Part shown: in pieces, positions 12,500 to 39,945 of the stretch
Layout of the letters: each line of letters begins with the position of its first letter
How positions within the stretch are numbered: the stretch's first letter is position 1
Source: Micrasema longulum
Taxonomy: Eukaryota; Arthropoda; Insecta; Trichoptera; Brachycentridae
Direction: 5' to 3'
NCBI GenBank assembly: GCA_022494885.1
Contig: JAGVSM010004547.1
Location: forward strand, 124,001 to 188,000
DNA length: 64,000 nt
The notes under the pieces: generated by a model
The model's database searches: none
Told to the model about the DNA's origin: nothing
The model's input: only the letters and a program-made list of their open reading frames with translations
Translations under genes and position numbers: made by a program

Positions 12500-12721
12500 A
12501 ATATTATGTCAGGATTCTGTTTTTTTTTTAAATGGCAGCCTTACTCTATTCTTGTTTCTAGTCAAATTAAAAAAAAAATAACCTACTTAGCCTCTATTTT
12601 AGAATCAGCAGATGGGAAAGAGAGAATGTCGAAGAAAAATACACCACAATACCCAGACCAATTGAGAAAAAATATTTCTCGCGACGCCAGTTTTACAGTT
12701 ACCGTCTAACCAACTGAGCCA
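12500..12721. other. Short spacer between elements
   Basis: AT-rich sequence with no recognised gene, ending in the CGGCG that was duplicated when Transib element A inserted. The last 40 bp (CCGTCTAACCAACTGAGCCA) look like an antisense tRNA A-box region of a SINE, which may be the sequence into which Transib A jumped. Confidence 0.5.
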
Positions 12722-12726
12722 CGGCG

Positions 12727-12765
12727 CACAGTGTTTCGTTTCATACAAGCTAGAAACTAAAAATT
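12727..12765 (+). repeat. Transib A left terminus, RSS-like (heptamer, 23-bp spacer, A-rich nonamer)
   Basis: CACAGTG (12727-12733) equals the consensus V(D)J recombination-signal heptamer. After 23 bp lies CTAAAAATT, sharing the A5 core of the RSS nonamer. Kapitonov and Jurka (2005) proposed that RSSs derive from Transib termini with this layout; this copy fits. Confidence 0.85.
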
Positions 12766-13194
12766 CTGAATGTACTTTTAACTTACGTATGCGATTCATT
12801 TAATCCTAAAAATAGGTTTTTTTTAATTAAATATGTAATAATAATTCGTTTTATAAAAAATATGTCACATTTTGTTATTTAATAAACGAAATAAATTTTC
12901 TAGAAATTGATATCTGCATCCAATAATGTATTTAAGGATCATAAATAATTGAAATTATTACTTTAATTCTATTGACTGATAAATCGGTCAACCTATAAAA
13001 TAAATAATTGAAAATTATATTAGATACTTAGGCATAAAATAAAGATTTCACACGAGAAAACTAATCTGCCTTCACTTGTTTTGTCAGAATAACCATTTTA
13101 CAGCTGATTTTATTATGTTAAACATGACAACTGAAAGGGTTTAAATAAACTTAAAAGTTTGGCATTGTAAGGAACACAGAAGTGAGGCAACGGA

Positions 13195-13470
13195 CACAGC
13201 AACCCTTGGTATCTACTGTCATCCAAGGCGTTTTGGCTGGCAAGGCCATGTACTACGTATGCCTTCCGAGAGTCTTAACCATGCTTGCCTATGTTACAAG
13301 GCATCAGGTTCTTGGCGTCCTGGTCGTCCGCTGTTGACAATTTGTGGGCAGTTTGCGTCAGAGTTGCGGTACGTGGACTTAAGTTGGGAGGATGTACGGG
13401 AGGTCGATCGCTTGGCCGGAGGCTGATTATGGAATCCATATGCTCCACATAGGGAGCGGATATGGTATGA
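13195..13470 (+). pseudogene. LINE ORF2 C-terminal tail, family L-GRP copy 2, nested in Transib A
   Basis: The plus strand reads GWQGHVLRMPSESLNHACLC, then WRPGRPLLTICGQFASELRY, then VDLSWEDVREVDRLAGG before a stop, then LWNPYAPHRERIW. GHVLRMP followed by GRP is the signature of the C-terminal tail of RTE-like and related LINEs. Orientation is opposite to the Transib gene, and it replaces the position where the transposase's second Asp and Glu should lie. Confidence 0.7.
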
Positions 13471-13508
13471 TGATGATAAGACTTAAAGATTTTTAAATAA
13501 AACATTTG

Positions 13509-15161
13509 TTATAAGTGATTTTCAAATAGATGTATTTTGAGAAATATAAAAAGAGCATGTAATGTAGATAAGCCAAAGGAATAAAATTCTTGTCGAGAAA
13601 CTCTATTAATACTAATAGAGTTCATTTCACTGGGTTTGGCGCCACAAATATAACAGGACATGGTTGACTTATTTTCAGCCAAAACGTTGCGAATTTTACC
13701 ATCTACCATTGTTAAAAGCATTTTAAATTTTATGGACAATACTACACCTCCAATATTAACATTAAAATTTTCAAGTTTTTCAATTGCATCTTGAAGTTTT
13801 TCGATTTCAGACTTAGTAAGAATATCAGTTTCTTTGGCGAAAATAATTTAATAGGACGACAATAAGAGGTTGAGGAAGGGCTTAAATTTTGCCAAATTAC
13901 TATATTAGGGTCATCATTAAGCCTCAGTTGTATTGGAACGAATGACATAATAAATAAAAATTCATCTATTGCATGCTCTGTGTAAAATTTCTGTTTATAA
14001 TTACTATGTCCCGAGCTTCCATTTCTACCCCACTTGCATATAAGAGTCAGTACAGAACCTGAAGGAACTTTTTCTTTTAAGACTTCTGATTCTACATTTA
14101 GCAATCGTTGCACCGTATGATTTAAAATCGCTTGTAGCTGGATTTCTGCACTAGTTTCCGTTATTTTGACAAATTCCTCGCTCAGGCAACATGGTTTTTT
14201 TTCTTTTCTTAAACTATAAAATGCCGGATATATGTTGTGGCCGGTTTTTATGGCATTTTTACGCATAACTTTGTAGGAATGCGAAGATAATTTACAGTCA
14301 ACGTATAAACTTACCGCTTCCTCAATTGTCAATGCCCACTGTTTGTTTACTTGTTGACGTTCGCTACGTATTTTTGCTACTTCATTGGGAGTAGCTTTCA
14401 AAATTTTCTTTAGGAGATCGGCAACTGTGCGTTTTCCTGATGCTCGAATAGATACCTGCGTGGCAAACGAAAGTTCTTCAGATGTCTTCGTACTCACTAA
14501 ATCACGCACTTTTGTCCTTTTGCACTGATCACTGCATGCCCCAAAATCCTTTGCGGGCCTTCCAGTAGACGTAGATGGTTTATTCATGTCTACTGAAGGA
14601 CTTTGTCGAAAGTTTTCACATATCAAAATATTTTCACTACCGTCGAGCCACTCAAATTTTTTTTTAACAAATCTATCTAGTTTACAGCCAGATTCGGTCC
14701 ATTTTCTGCTTATATTTAAACAAATAAGCTTAATTTGATGTTTTAACAGTTTTTCACCACTTGCACCGAGTTCACCGACTTCAAATTTACTAACAATATT
14801 ATTTAACACTCCTTGAAGCCTTTCTTTCTTCGTCAAACTCGTCCACATCACGTACAATTCTTGCCTGGAAATCTCGTATCTGGTACCTGTAAAATAACAA
14901 AATAAGATAGATGCAACTTCGTGCGGTAAAATATTGAAACTGTAATGAATTAACAATAAATTGGTCTATTGAAAAATAAAAATAATATTTTGCTACTTTG
15001 ATATACTCTCCGAGATAAATTCTCGAGAAGTTAGAAATTGATATTTTTTTAACTACTGAAAAATACATAAGATAAATTATTGTTTTTTTAAATACCTAAA
15101 TGAAATACATTAAAATATTAGAAAAAAAACCATACAACATACCTTCCAAAATAGCTTCCAT
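13509..15161 (-). pseudogene. Transib A transposase (RAG1 core homologue), two exons, inactivated
   Basis: Exon 1 (15161-15143, ATGGAAGCTATTTTGGAAG) ends at a GTATGT donor. A 256-bp intron ends TTATTTTACAG, and exon 2 starts at 14886 in phase 1. Exon 2 carries the N-terminal block KRTKVRDLVSTKTSEELSFA and ALTIEEAVSLYVDCK, then KWGRNGSSGHSNYKQKF. The last is the first catalytic block, where Transib/RAG1 proteins have an Asp and this copy has Asn (GRNGSS). Next come VIWQNLSPSSTSYCRPIKL and, after a frameshift near 13850, LLTMVDGKIRNVLAENKS, the zinc-binding MSCYICGAKP and FGLSTLHALFIF, equivalent to the RAG1 CxxC and following region. The second Asp, the Glu and the C-terminus are absent. Active family members cut at CAC(A/G) termini by a hairpin mechanism in the nucleus. 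Confidence 0.9.
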
Positions 15162-15385
15162 TTTTTTTTAAATCGAAATAAAAAACTTTAAACTTGATAA
15201 ACAACCTTTACACGTCGGACGCCAAAATGCAAATAAATGTAATTAGGCTTTCAAAAACCAATTATCCGACTTTCATATTCTGGTATGAATCACCCTAAGC
15301 ATTAATCACCCCAATTAGGCTTACAATCGTCACACTAACTATCTGGTAATGCCCCATGACGTCATCGTTTAAGAATTCAAAAGTG

Positions 15386-15424
15386 ACTTTTTATCTTGTA
15401 GCTTGTATGGGTCAAAACACTGTG
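15386..15424 (-). repeat. Transib A right terminus, RSS-like
   Basis: Read inward on the minus strand: CACAGTG, a 23-bp spacer, then ATAAAAAGT, which agrees with the RSS nonamer consensus at six of nine positions. The TSD copy CGGCG follows at 15425-15429. Confidence 0.85.
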
Positions 15425-15429
15425 CGGCG

Positions 15430-16698: not shown

Positions 16699-16753
16699 AT
16701 CGATTTAATTTATCCTTTAACAGGGACAATCATCGCGCAAAATTGAACCAGCG

Positions 16754-18361
16754 CACTATGGTTCGTTTAGAACATGCTGGCTAGACAAAATGATTTTTTG
16801 CGATTTTTGTTTTCTTGTAACCTTTTATGGTTACATGATGCATCTTTAGGGTAATTAGAGGAAGTGTGTTCATTGGGTGGGTAAAAATGTATATTTACTC
16901 AAATTCTACAATATAAATAATAATAATATTTTATAATATTTAAAAAATACACGACAAAGAACAACAATAAACCTGAATTGGGTAGGTAGGTATTTGACAG
17001 ATGTTAAAATATTACAAAAAATCTAACTGGTAGAAAACACGTTAAACCGATAGGTTCCTGAAAATGAGAAGGTTTAATAGGTAGTAGGTACGTGACAACT
17101 CTTATAAAAAAGGTGTAACAGTTAAAAAACAATAGGTACAAGACAGGAATTACAAAAAACGTCGACATATAAAAACAGGTAAACTACCTTCTAAAATGTT
17201 AGACCTAATAACCTCTTTCTAATTAATTCTAATACCTCAGACTACCTGAGTTTTTTTTGGGAACCTCTCGTAGGCCATTTATCAAAGGGTCAGATGTGAT
17301 TAATAACAAATTCGACTTCGAGTCTAAATAATATGCCAAAGCCGCTTCTCTCGATAAGCACCTTTGACTGCTGTTTTCACTACTACTGACACTATCTTTA
17401 ATCAATTTGCACTTTTCGGGACTTTTATTTGCATTCCTAATAACAACAGCAAGGCTCCAGTTCACAGACGATCGCGCTGAAAACTCTGCTGCAGCCACGT
17501 ACTCATTTGTGTCGCGTGTACTAAACAGATCTTCAATTTTTCTCCTTTTTATTTTGTCACTGGACTAGTCAAAATTTTTGATTGGATTGGATAAAAAAAA
17601 TTAAACCAAAAATTATACAAGATTTATATTTAAAAATTAACCTAAAAATTATACAGCATATAAGTTATTAAAATATATAAATTATATGGCATAAATTAGT
17701 GGAAAATGCTCTTATGGTATTTTTTAGAGCCCTCTCAGAATCTTCGGTAATACCGGAAAAAACATATTTTGCAAACAATTCGCTATCCCGGTTTTCTTTC
17801 CCGTATTTCAGCCACTCTTCAAAAAATTCTGATCGTGAGATTGAGAAGAGGTGCTCTGGAAAAAAAATCTATAAAATAGTTCCACTTTTAGTTCCAGTTT
17901 TAGAAACAAAAATGTTCAAGCTACAATATTGTGTAAGTTTTAGCCATTTGACTTGTCTTGACAAGTCTTTCCGGGTTCAAAATAGGTAAAAATTACAGAA
18001 AAAAAAAGTGAAAATGAACTTTGGGATAGCGTAAAAAAAAAAACAAGCAGCAACATGTGTATTTGTTTTACAATAAAATATAGTACATACCTTCACCTCT
18101 AAAATTCATTACTAAGATAAACAAATACTACTATCAAAGTCAGTGTAACAAGAATATCAAATACAAAATTGCGAATGAATACTAGTTCACTTACCCCTTC
18201 TTTATATACTTACCTGCTACCCTCATCTACCGCGGCCCATAGGGCAGTAAAATTCTTGGAATTCGAAGTTCATGGGTTTTGTTTATCATATTAGGAATGT
18301 ATTTCCGGGAAATTCGGTAGTGAATTTTGTCTAGCTAGCATGTTCTAGACGAACCATAGTG
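16754..18361 (-). mobile_element. Transib transposon B (RAG1-like), 1.6 kb, with 5-bp TSD
   Basis: The 38-bp terminal inverted repeats start CACTATGGTTCGTTTAGAAC (left) and CACTATGGTTCGTCTAGAAC (right, reverse complement), with only two mismatches over 38 bp. The flanks are CAGCG at 16749-16753 and 18362-18366, an exact 5-bp duplication. After the CACTATG heptamer and a 23-24 bp spacer both ends have ACAAAAT, close to the RSS nonamer core. The minus strand encodes two N-terminal pieces of a transposase related to that of element A. The catalytic region is missing, so B is a non-autonomous derivative of a different Transib subfamily. Confidence 0.93.
17229..17855 (-). pseudogene. Transib B transposase N-terminal remnants
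   Basis: Segment 1 starts at 17855 right after TTTTTTTTCCAG and reads (x)HLFSISRSEFFEEWLKYGK, continuing to about 17690. It enters in phase 1 and reaches ISR after four residues, exactly as exon 2 of Transib A does. Segment 2 (about 17565-17229) reads DKIKRRKIEDLFSTRDTNEY, then VAAAEFSARSS and CLSREAALAYYLDSK, aligning with KRTKVRDLVSTKTSEELSFA, VSIRAS and ALTIEEAVSLYVDCK of A. A stop follows at 17229. The AT-rich gap between segments and the lack of the first-Asp block show internal loss. Confidence 0.8.
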
Positions 18362-18369
18362 CAGCGCGC

Positions 18370-38576: not shown

Positions 38577-39945
38577 TCAGCTATTGCCCTCAATCAAAAT
38601 ACATCCATTATCAGCAAAAGCTTGAACCATACATGTTGAAGAAAGGGAAAGTTCGAAAAAATCATCGAACAACACATTCCACAAAAGTGGTCCCAAAACA
38701 AAGCCTCGAAGACAGCCACATGAAATCTCACGTGATATAAGTGTACTTTTATCGGGATACACAACGTTTCGATTTAAAAAACAGTTTAATATAATTTTAA
38801 ATAAGTTTGCAGGTATTTGTCGAAGTTGTTAGTTGATAAGAATCATCGGCCACCAAGCATGGTCAAAGGCACCTGAGATATCAAGTTACATAATGAAGAC
38901 TCTTTTTTTGTTAGTGTTTTTAGCAAAATTTCTTGTCAAAATGATAGCATTTTTAGTAGAAATATTGGATCTGAACCCAAATTCCTTAGTGTTTATCGGC
39001 TTAGTTACATTTAAGTGAGACGCAAGTCTGTTACATATTAGTCGTTTCAGTGTTTTCCCCAGAATAGGCAGAATAGCGATTGGTCTATACGCTTTAGCAT
39101 CAGTACTTAGCCGATCGCAGCGCTTAGGAATACTTTTTATCAATCCCGTTTTCCAGCAATCTGGGAAGACACCTTTGGAAAGACATATATTAAACATGGT
39201 AAGGAGTTCAAATGGGGCTAAAGACCAGCACCTTTTTACAAGCGCAGGATCAATTCGATCTAGACAAGATGTTTTATTTAGGTTGAGATTGGAGACGATT
39301 TTTCCAACATCCAATGAGGATATAGGTGGTGACAACGAAGTTAATAGAATTAATACTGCATGTTCTCTAACCTGAATATGATGAATAGAATCAGAAGCTA
39401 TGTCTTTAGTAGGGATAAGTGCGTCAAGCAGAGCTGAAGCCATGTCCACAGCAGTGAGTGTAATGATACCAGTCAAAGAATGTTTAATACCAGTAATAGG
39501 CTTATCTTGCAAATTATTTTTGGGAATAAATCTTTATAGAGCAGAGCACCCCAGGGATCAGATTTTGATAGATAGTTTACTAGGTGGCGCCAACTAAGTC
39601 TTTTGGCTTTATCTATTGTAGTTTTGTATTTATTATCTGCCATTTTAAAATTTGCATCTAGTAAAGACAATGCTAAAGGATCACAGTTCGTCGACCCCTT
39701 TCGAGAGCTCTTCGTGCACGATTGAAAATTGTTTTTAATGCCGAAAGATTGGAATTCCACCATTTGTGACGAGTCAAAAGAGGAAGGAAGGTTCGTCTTA
39801 GCGCATTTTCTGCACAAGTTATACATGACGCTATTTCCTGAACCCCAATGTTCATTCTAGATCCATTTGATAAGTGAACTGAGCGTCAAAGTTTGACCAG
39901 TTTTCAGTTTTTGATCGAAAACGCGATGGGATTGGTAATGTAAAA
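38577..39945 (-). pseudogene. R1-clade-like LINE ORF2: linker and reverse transcriptase relic
   Basis: On the minus strand, from 39940 to 38577: an AENALRRTFLPLLTRHKWWN linker, AKRLSWRHLVNYLSKSDPWG, RT fingers KTSCLDRIDPALVKRCW, GVFPDCWKTGLIKSIPK and YRPIAILPILGKTLKRLICN, then GFRSN. Next is motif A as LDISGAFDHAWWP, preceded by an in-frame TAA, then GFVLGPLLWNVLFDD and the active site as FADN instead of (Y/F)ADD. The AFDxxWWP form is typical of the R1 clade. Several frameshifts separate the pieces; the endonuclease N-terminus and the 3' end are missing. The product would have been a target-primed reverse transcriptase. Confidence 0.9.

Follow-up and report, generated by a model that had tools for sequence, protein, structure and literature searches.

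The Transib families set out by Kapitonov and Jurka in 2005 are said to have in common a heptamer that starts with CAC, an A-rich block ~23 bp inward from it, and a 5-bp duplication of the target. PMC8355894 and PMC6941560 describe Transib families by these same features, and CGNCG figures as their target in PMC4735498 and PMC5704228. HzTransib of Helicoverpa zea, with a length of 3518 bp and the 5-bp GC-rich duplication GCTCG (as given in PMC1852546), is reported to cleave DNA in a RAG-like manner (in the account of PMC6941560). Transib ends that resemble the recombination signal sequences (RSSs) of V(D)J recombination are treated in PMC6941560, PMC8355894, PMC8289069 and PMC7204232, the first two of which already contain heptamers identical to that of the RSS. 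The spacers of RSSs are described as poorly conserved (PMC9723617).

Transibs with RSS-like ends are thus already known, and the element at 12727-15424 of the window (the whole 64,000-nucleotide stretch of the Micrasema longulum genome that was analysed) is a well-preserved but ordinary case. It almost certainly belongs to a recently active Transib family, here called F1, as a non-autonomous copy with an internal deletion. F1 resembles HzTransib in the DDE transposase of its long parent and in its 5-bp GC-rich duplication; it is unlike HzTransib in that the parent belongs to a distinct family and that the window copy lacks a complete transposase. The CAC heptamer, the A-rich block and the 5-bp duplication are those of the Kapitonov and Jurka families, from which F1 would be set apart by an end sequence of its own that includes CATACAAGCTA. 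Like the 23-RSS of V(D)J recombination, the F1 end has the heptamer CACAGTG and 23 bp leading to an A-rich block; unlike it, both ends have the 23-bp spacing, the nonamer matches at only 5 or 6 of 9 positions, and the spacer is conserved among copies and is part of a transposon end. ProtoRAG and the RAGL transposons share with F1 the CAC ends and the GC-biased 5-bp duplication, and differ from it in that F1 has a single gene, with no RAG2-like frame found in two long copies (L039 and L040), and 23/23 spacing instead of 27/31. Text searches of the literature, within the text that they reached, found no mention of F1.

Layout of the window copy

The features of the element are collected in Table 1. 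Direct reading gives CACAGTG, 23 bp and CTAAAAATT at the left end, and CACAGTG, 23 bp and ATAAAAAGT at the right end (as the reverse complement from 15424); an exact CGGCG duplication (12722-12726 and 15425-15429) bounds the element, and the two 40-bp ends are inverted repeats of 80% identity. The inverted CACAGTG ends with 23-bp spacers and the CGGCG on both sides had been predicted just so. The pattern CACAGTG-N22/24-WTAAAAAKT has one match in the window, which is the right end, and none in 100 shuffles; the left end fails it at the first letter of the nonamer.

Table 1. Features of the F1 element, its flanks and the neighbouring F2 element (positions in the window)
Feature	Position	Strand	Remarks
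tRNA-derived, presumably SINE-like head; target of the insertion, with CGGCG at its end	12680-12726	-	presumed A-box-like TGGCTCAGTTGG; same head beside L009, L014, L023, L024, L030, L034
Target-site duplication CGGCG, left	12722-12726	.	read directly
Left heptamer CACAGTG	12727-12733	+	identical in 36/36 aligned copies
Left 23-bp "spacer", includes CATACAAGCTA	12734-12756	+	invariant over 36 copies
Left A-rich nonamer-like block CTAAAAATT	12757-12765	+	5/9 versus RSS nonamer
Presumed LINE 3' piece, ATGATGATGATA tail	13150-13485	+	boundaries approximate, by eye; ORF 13145-13426
Transposase fragment with Asp-2 (MVDGK) and CYICG motif	13509-13847	-	frame differs from that of 13742-14965
Internal deletion junction AGC	13554-13556	.	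1.48 kb of parent missing
Open stretch of 407 codons (transposase, N-terminal and central parts)	13742-14965	-	HzTransib 6pqn, E 6e-24
Catalytic Asp-1 codon, here AAT (Asn)	14021-14023	-	long copies: KWGGDG
Predicted GT-AG intron between 7-residue first exon (ATG 15161) and main exon	14887-15142	-	by eye
Right A-rich nonamer-like block ATAAAAAGT	15386-15394	-	6/9 versus RSS nonamer
Right 23-bp "spacer"	15395-15417	-	36-copy alignment
Right heptamer CACAGTG	15418-15424	-	read directly; 36-copy alignment
Target-site duplication CGGCG, right	15425-15429	.	read directly
Second Transib (family F2), internally deleted	16754-18361	-	ends CACTATG; transposase remnants 17238-17901

The minus-strand open stretch of 407 codons bears out the expectation of a RAG1-core-like protein: it matches HzTransib (PDB 6pqn) with E 6e-24, has 27 database homologues at 26-50% identity, and shares 91% identity with the transposase of the long F1 copy L039 across 383 residues. 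When the 27 relatives were used as tblastn queries, residues 1-432 (of 692 in the nearest relative, P0001) were covered, and no more transposase was found between the change of frame, near 13830-13850, and the left end. That change is a frameshift. The first catalytic motif, KWGxDG, reads KWGRNG, so that the first Asp is Asn; the second Asp is kept and the Glu is absent. Among four reading frames of the window, Pfam gave weak matches below the curated cut-offs, none of them to RAG1. With its C-terminus missing, the window copy has no complete open transposase, and the adjective "near-complete" of the original prediction has to be given up: the residues after 432 of 692 are gone together with the catalytic Glu, and the parent is 1.48 kb longer.

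The piece at 13150-13485 we take to be of LINE origin (Pfam had no match for it), just as we take the repeat at 12680-12726 to be a SINE and its minus-strand TGGCTCAGTTGG to be A-box-like. The LINE piece is present in the long copies as well: L039, L040 and L042-L044 align over element positions 1-830, and L039 and L040 carry a matching 111-codon stretch of it; it therefore predates the deletion, or in any case is not specific to the deleted copies. Elsewhere in the window (38886-39533) a 215-codon open stretch looks, by eye, like a LINE reverse transcriptase. Three copies that form one clade (L036, L037 and L038) share ~95 additional bases within the LINE piece.

Copies of F1 and their long parent

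A search of the insect's own genome (584 Mb in 5184 contigs) gave 43 matches and scored 40 of 881 candidates, so that the copies studied are probably the best-preserved ones. With the window copy, 39 fetched loci make 40; four cut by contig ends (L041, L045, L046, L047) were left out, and the alignment and the counts of ends refer to the remaining 36, that is, the window copy and 35 others. CACAGTG starts all 72 of their 72 ends, and 35 of the 36 have exact 5-bp duplications (L038 does not). By length, 28 are like the window copy, at ~2.7 kb (L035 has 2631 bp), three measure ~2.8 kb, and five measure 4.18-4.19 kb. The 28 are 98.0% identical on average in pairwise comparison (97.1-99.96).

The long copies hold an extra 1.48 kb between two AGC triplets, precisely where the window copy jumps, and a tree branch with 100/100 support separates all five from the short ones. 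Of the 31 short copies, 27 preserve the AGC junction intact, three (L030, L032 and L033) carry altered bases at it, and one, L035, has a local deletion. In the 36-copy alignment, then, the short copies are deletion derivatives with one common junction, which also contradicts near-completeness. Their longest open stretches measure between 189 and 485 codons. One substitution and two gap columns separate the window copy from L009, which sits at another site; from L010 it is separated by four substitutions and a single gap column, again with different flanks. An open stretch of 485 codons survives in L009 and L010, and the frameshift is therefore private to the window copy. The change of Asp-1 to Asn is common to these three, and L032 also has AAT there (4 of the 36).

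The parent, 4.19 kb long and present in three copies in this genome, has an open frame of 718 codons in which D, D and E are in place. Those 718 codons run without interruption in L039 and L040, with the motifs KWGGDG, MVDGK and GQLSEEAQEARNK; the third stop-free frame of this length is that of C164 (L041, a copy truncated at the left by the end of its contig). Frameshifts interrupt the transposases of L042, L043 and L044. Between L039 and L040, which occupy different sites, there is one substitution in 4188.

Residues 213-672 of the parent protein match HzTransib 6pqn with E 4.5e-123, and its D, D and E (in L039 and L040) align with 6pqn D109, D208 and E419, which correspond, at a constant offset of 17, to D126, D225 and E436 in the HzTransib numbering found in PMC6941560. 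The protein also matches RAG1 chains (2.3e-8) and the Pfam RAG1 family PF12940 (6.1e-10). The predicted Transib identity and kinship with RAG1 are thereby upheld from a parent in the same genome; a profile match to RAG1, proposed as a check, was obtained with this intact parent and not with the frames of the window. F1 combines a RAG1-core-like DDE transposase, catalytic residues intact in the parents, with inverted CAC-heptamer ends, an A-rich block ~23 bp inward, and a 5-bp duplication with a preference for CGNCG. Among the best 120 of 161 relatives of the parent protein, identity is at most 53% over at least 80% of the length, and reaches 60% over 56% of it; the named relatives, among the matches listed, are insect proteins, including one of Spodoptera litura (50%).

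The family is far larger than the sample. A 26-bp end pattern occurs 190 times exactly in the genome (~95 elements' worth) and 298 times if two mismatches are allowed, the reversed-pattern control giving 0 in both cases; a scan of viral contigs for the pattern gave 0. Forty pairs of ends were assembled by hand among those listed: 32 span 2.6-2.8 kb, six span 4.1-4.3 kb, one spans 1.7 kb and one 3.2 kb.

Termini, spacers and recombination signals

On the left, the first 49 bp of F1 are invariant in the 36 copies, whereas 19% of interior columns vary (binomial 3e-5); on the right, the last 56 bp vary at two columns (binomial 7e-4), namely at position 14 (C in 26 copies, G in 10) and, in one copy, at position 27. 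Eight further copies were picked by protein match and fetched blind to their ends. Their left termini differ from the window copy at 0 of 392 positions, compared with 47 of 1268 immediately inward (Fisher 4.6e-6); their right termini exhibit no contrast (2 of 392 versus 11 of 1459, p 1.0). These Fisher values are optimistic, the rows sharing ancestry. Seven of the eight have matching 5-bp duplications, read by hand, the exception being C2996. The comparisons support a probable constraint on the left end twice over, and on the right end once, through the 36-copy alignment. The notion of "frozen" ends was discarded on a check of the sampling: 190 of the 298 near-matching ends are exact genome-wide, and 108 are not. 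Three ends chosen for lacking an exact match to the pattern proved to be two with CACTGTG and one that had lost its heptamer. L051 and L052 have CACTGTG, not CACAGTG, as right heptamer.

Two other Transib families bear on what the spacer may be. A second element, of family F2, lies 1.3 kb from the F1 element in the same orientation, and was absent from the original prediction. It is flanked by an exact CAGCG (16749-16753 and 18362-18366) and has 39-bp terminal inverted repeats at 95%; its transposase consists of N- and C-terminal remnants. Its heptamer, CACTATG, is that of ProtoRAG (as given in PMC8289069). Family F3 (L048-L050; C1300:19506-22818) has an open 729-codon transposase that is 45% identical to that of F1; its right heptamer is CACAGTG, where a single additional G precedes a CGTCG, and its left heptamer, after CGTCG, has decayed to CACTGAG. 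Leaving out that decayed end, the five ends of F1, F2 and F3 share CAC..TG.TT.G......ACA.GCT........AAAA.., and part of the spacer is therefore common to families (F1 and F3) whose proteins are 45% identical. This sequence comparison suggests that some of the recognition site lies within the so-called spacer, a feature by which Transib ends would differ from RSSs.

How close, then, are the F1 ends to a recombination signal? The window element has the heptamer consensus and the 23-bp spacing of the vertebrate 23-RSS, exactly and at both ends, as had been claimed from direct reading. An RSS-identical heptamer is ordinary for Transibs. Moreover, in the recombination assay of PMC9723617 the preference for CACAGTG is only marginal, and CACTATG ranks within the top two or three heptamers; identity of the heptamer by itself therefore predicts little. 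Against the nonamer ACAAAAACC at spacing 23, the left block scores 5/9 and the right 6/9, and a random plus-strand position in the window scores at least 5/9 in 8.7% of cases and at least 6/9 in 2.2%: the resemblance is weak and near chance. The left end reaches 6/9 at spacing 22, and three ends of F2 and F3 score better at spacing 24 (6/9, 7/9, 6/9). With near-chance nonamers, published precedents for the heptamer and a conserved spacer, the description of the element as an unusually close mimic of a recombination signal finds no support.

It is accordingly rather doubtful that these ends are functional 23-RSS mimics, cut efficiently by vertebrate RAG1/2 together with a 12-RSS partner. The consensus heptamer is followed by TT at both ends, CACAGTGTT ranks in the top quartile (0.829) of the 12-RSS assay of PMC9723617, and in data from that same source a cryptic nonamer, CTAAAAACC, to be compared with CTAAAAATT at the left end, accounts for 22% of normalised signal-joint reads; all of this speaks for cutting by RAG. 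Against it stand the nonamer scores of only 5/9 and 6/9, the merely marginal preference for the consensus heptamer, the 23/23 rather than 12/23 pairing of the ends, and a report, in PMC8289069, that mouse RAG is inactive on ProtoRAG ends. Somewhat less probable still is the combined case, a recently active Transib whose ends have by drift already come to suffice as 23-RSSs for vertebrate RAG1/2. Were it true, one and the same element could be cut by its own transposase, reading the spacer (for example CATACAAGCTA), and by RAG, reading heptamer and nonamer, and would offer a direct test of the shift in end recognition from spacer-reading to nonamer-reading.

Probable mobilisation in trans, and target sites

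The favoured reading is that a recently active Transib probably mobilised the window copy in trans. The 4.19-kb parent encodes a DDE transposase of the HzTransib/RAG1 type, which is predicted to bind the ~40-bp ends and, as extrapolated from HzTransib, to cut them by a nick-and-hairpin reaction; the excised element would then enter a CGNCG target, duplicating 5 bp. A single ancestor lost 1.48 kb between the two AGC triplets while keeping both ends, the deleted derivative presumably multiplied in trans, and the window copy landed in the GC-rich head of the presumed tRNA-derived SINE. Activity was recent, because near-identical pairs (the window copy and L009; L039 and L040) sit at different sites, and the family may be active at present. 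A precedent exists in Drosophila, where Transib1 insertions that are identical but for large internal deletions are described (PMC12974806). Two other readings have next to no probability. An autonomous, near-complete Transib would agree with the intact ends and the 407-codon open stretch; it is refuted by the deletion of the C-terminal part with the Glu (residues after 432 of 692) and by the longer parents, to which the frameshift and the Asn at Asp-1 can be added. Domestication of a RAG-like gene, or membership among the RAG1L-RAG2L transposons, would account for the RAG1 homology of the parent and is contradicted by the multiple copies with terminal repeats and duplications, by the varying open stretches of the 31 short copies, and by L039 and L040, in which neither strand has a stop-to-stop frame of more than 116 codons other than the transposase (a test that applies to genes unbroken by introns). 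The F1 element leaves the accepted link between Transib and RAG as it was; an apparently young Transib family with open-framed parents and CACAGTG heptamers is of use for comparing how Transib and RAG read their ends.

The 5-bp duplication had been put forward as a Transib trait, and the flanks agree. Of the 36 left flanks, 34 are CGNCG: CGGCG (14), CGACG (11), CGCCG (5) and CGTCG (4), the other two being CGGTG and CGCTG. By eye, seven of the 36 insertions hit the same CGGCG/CGCCG of the tRNA-derived repeat (the window copy, L009, L014, L023, L024, L030 and L034), as did L066, outside the 36. Two uninterrupted copies of this repeat, within L015 and L042, have GCCACGGCG with CCTGTC immediately after it, and a single CGGCG. 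The empty site with one CGGCG, which was to be sought at the orthologous position in a sister species, was thus seen in paralogous form only. CCTGTC follows the second CGGCG in L009 and L034; the window has CCATGC there.
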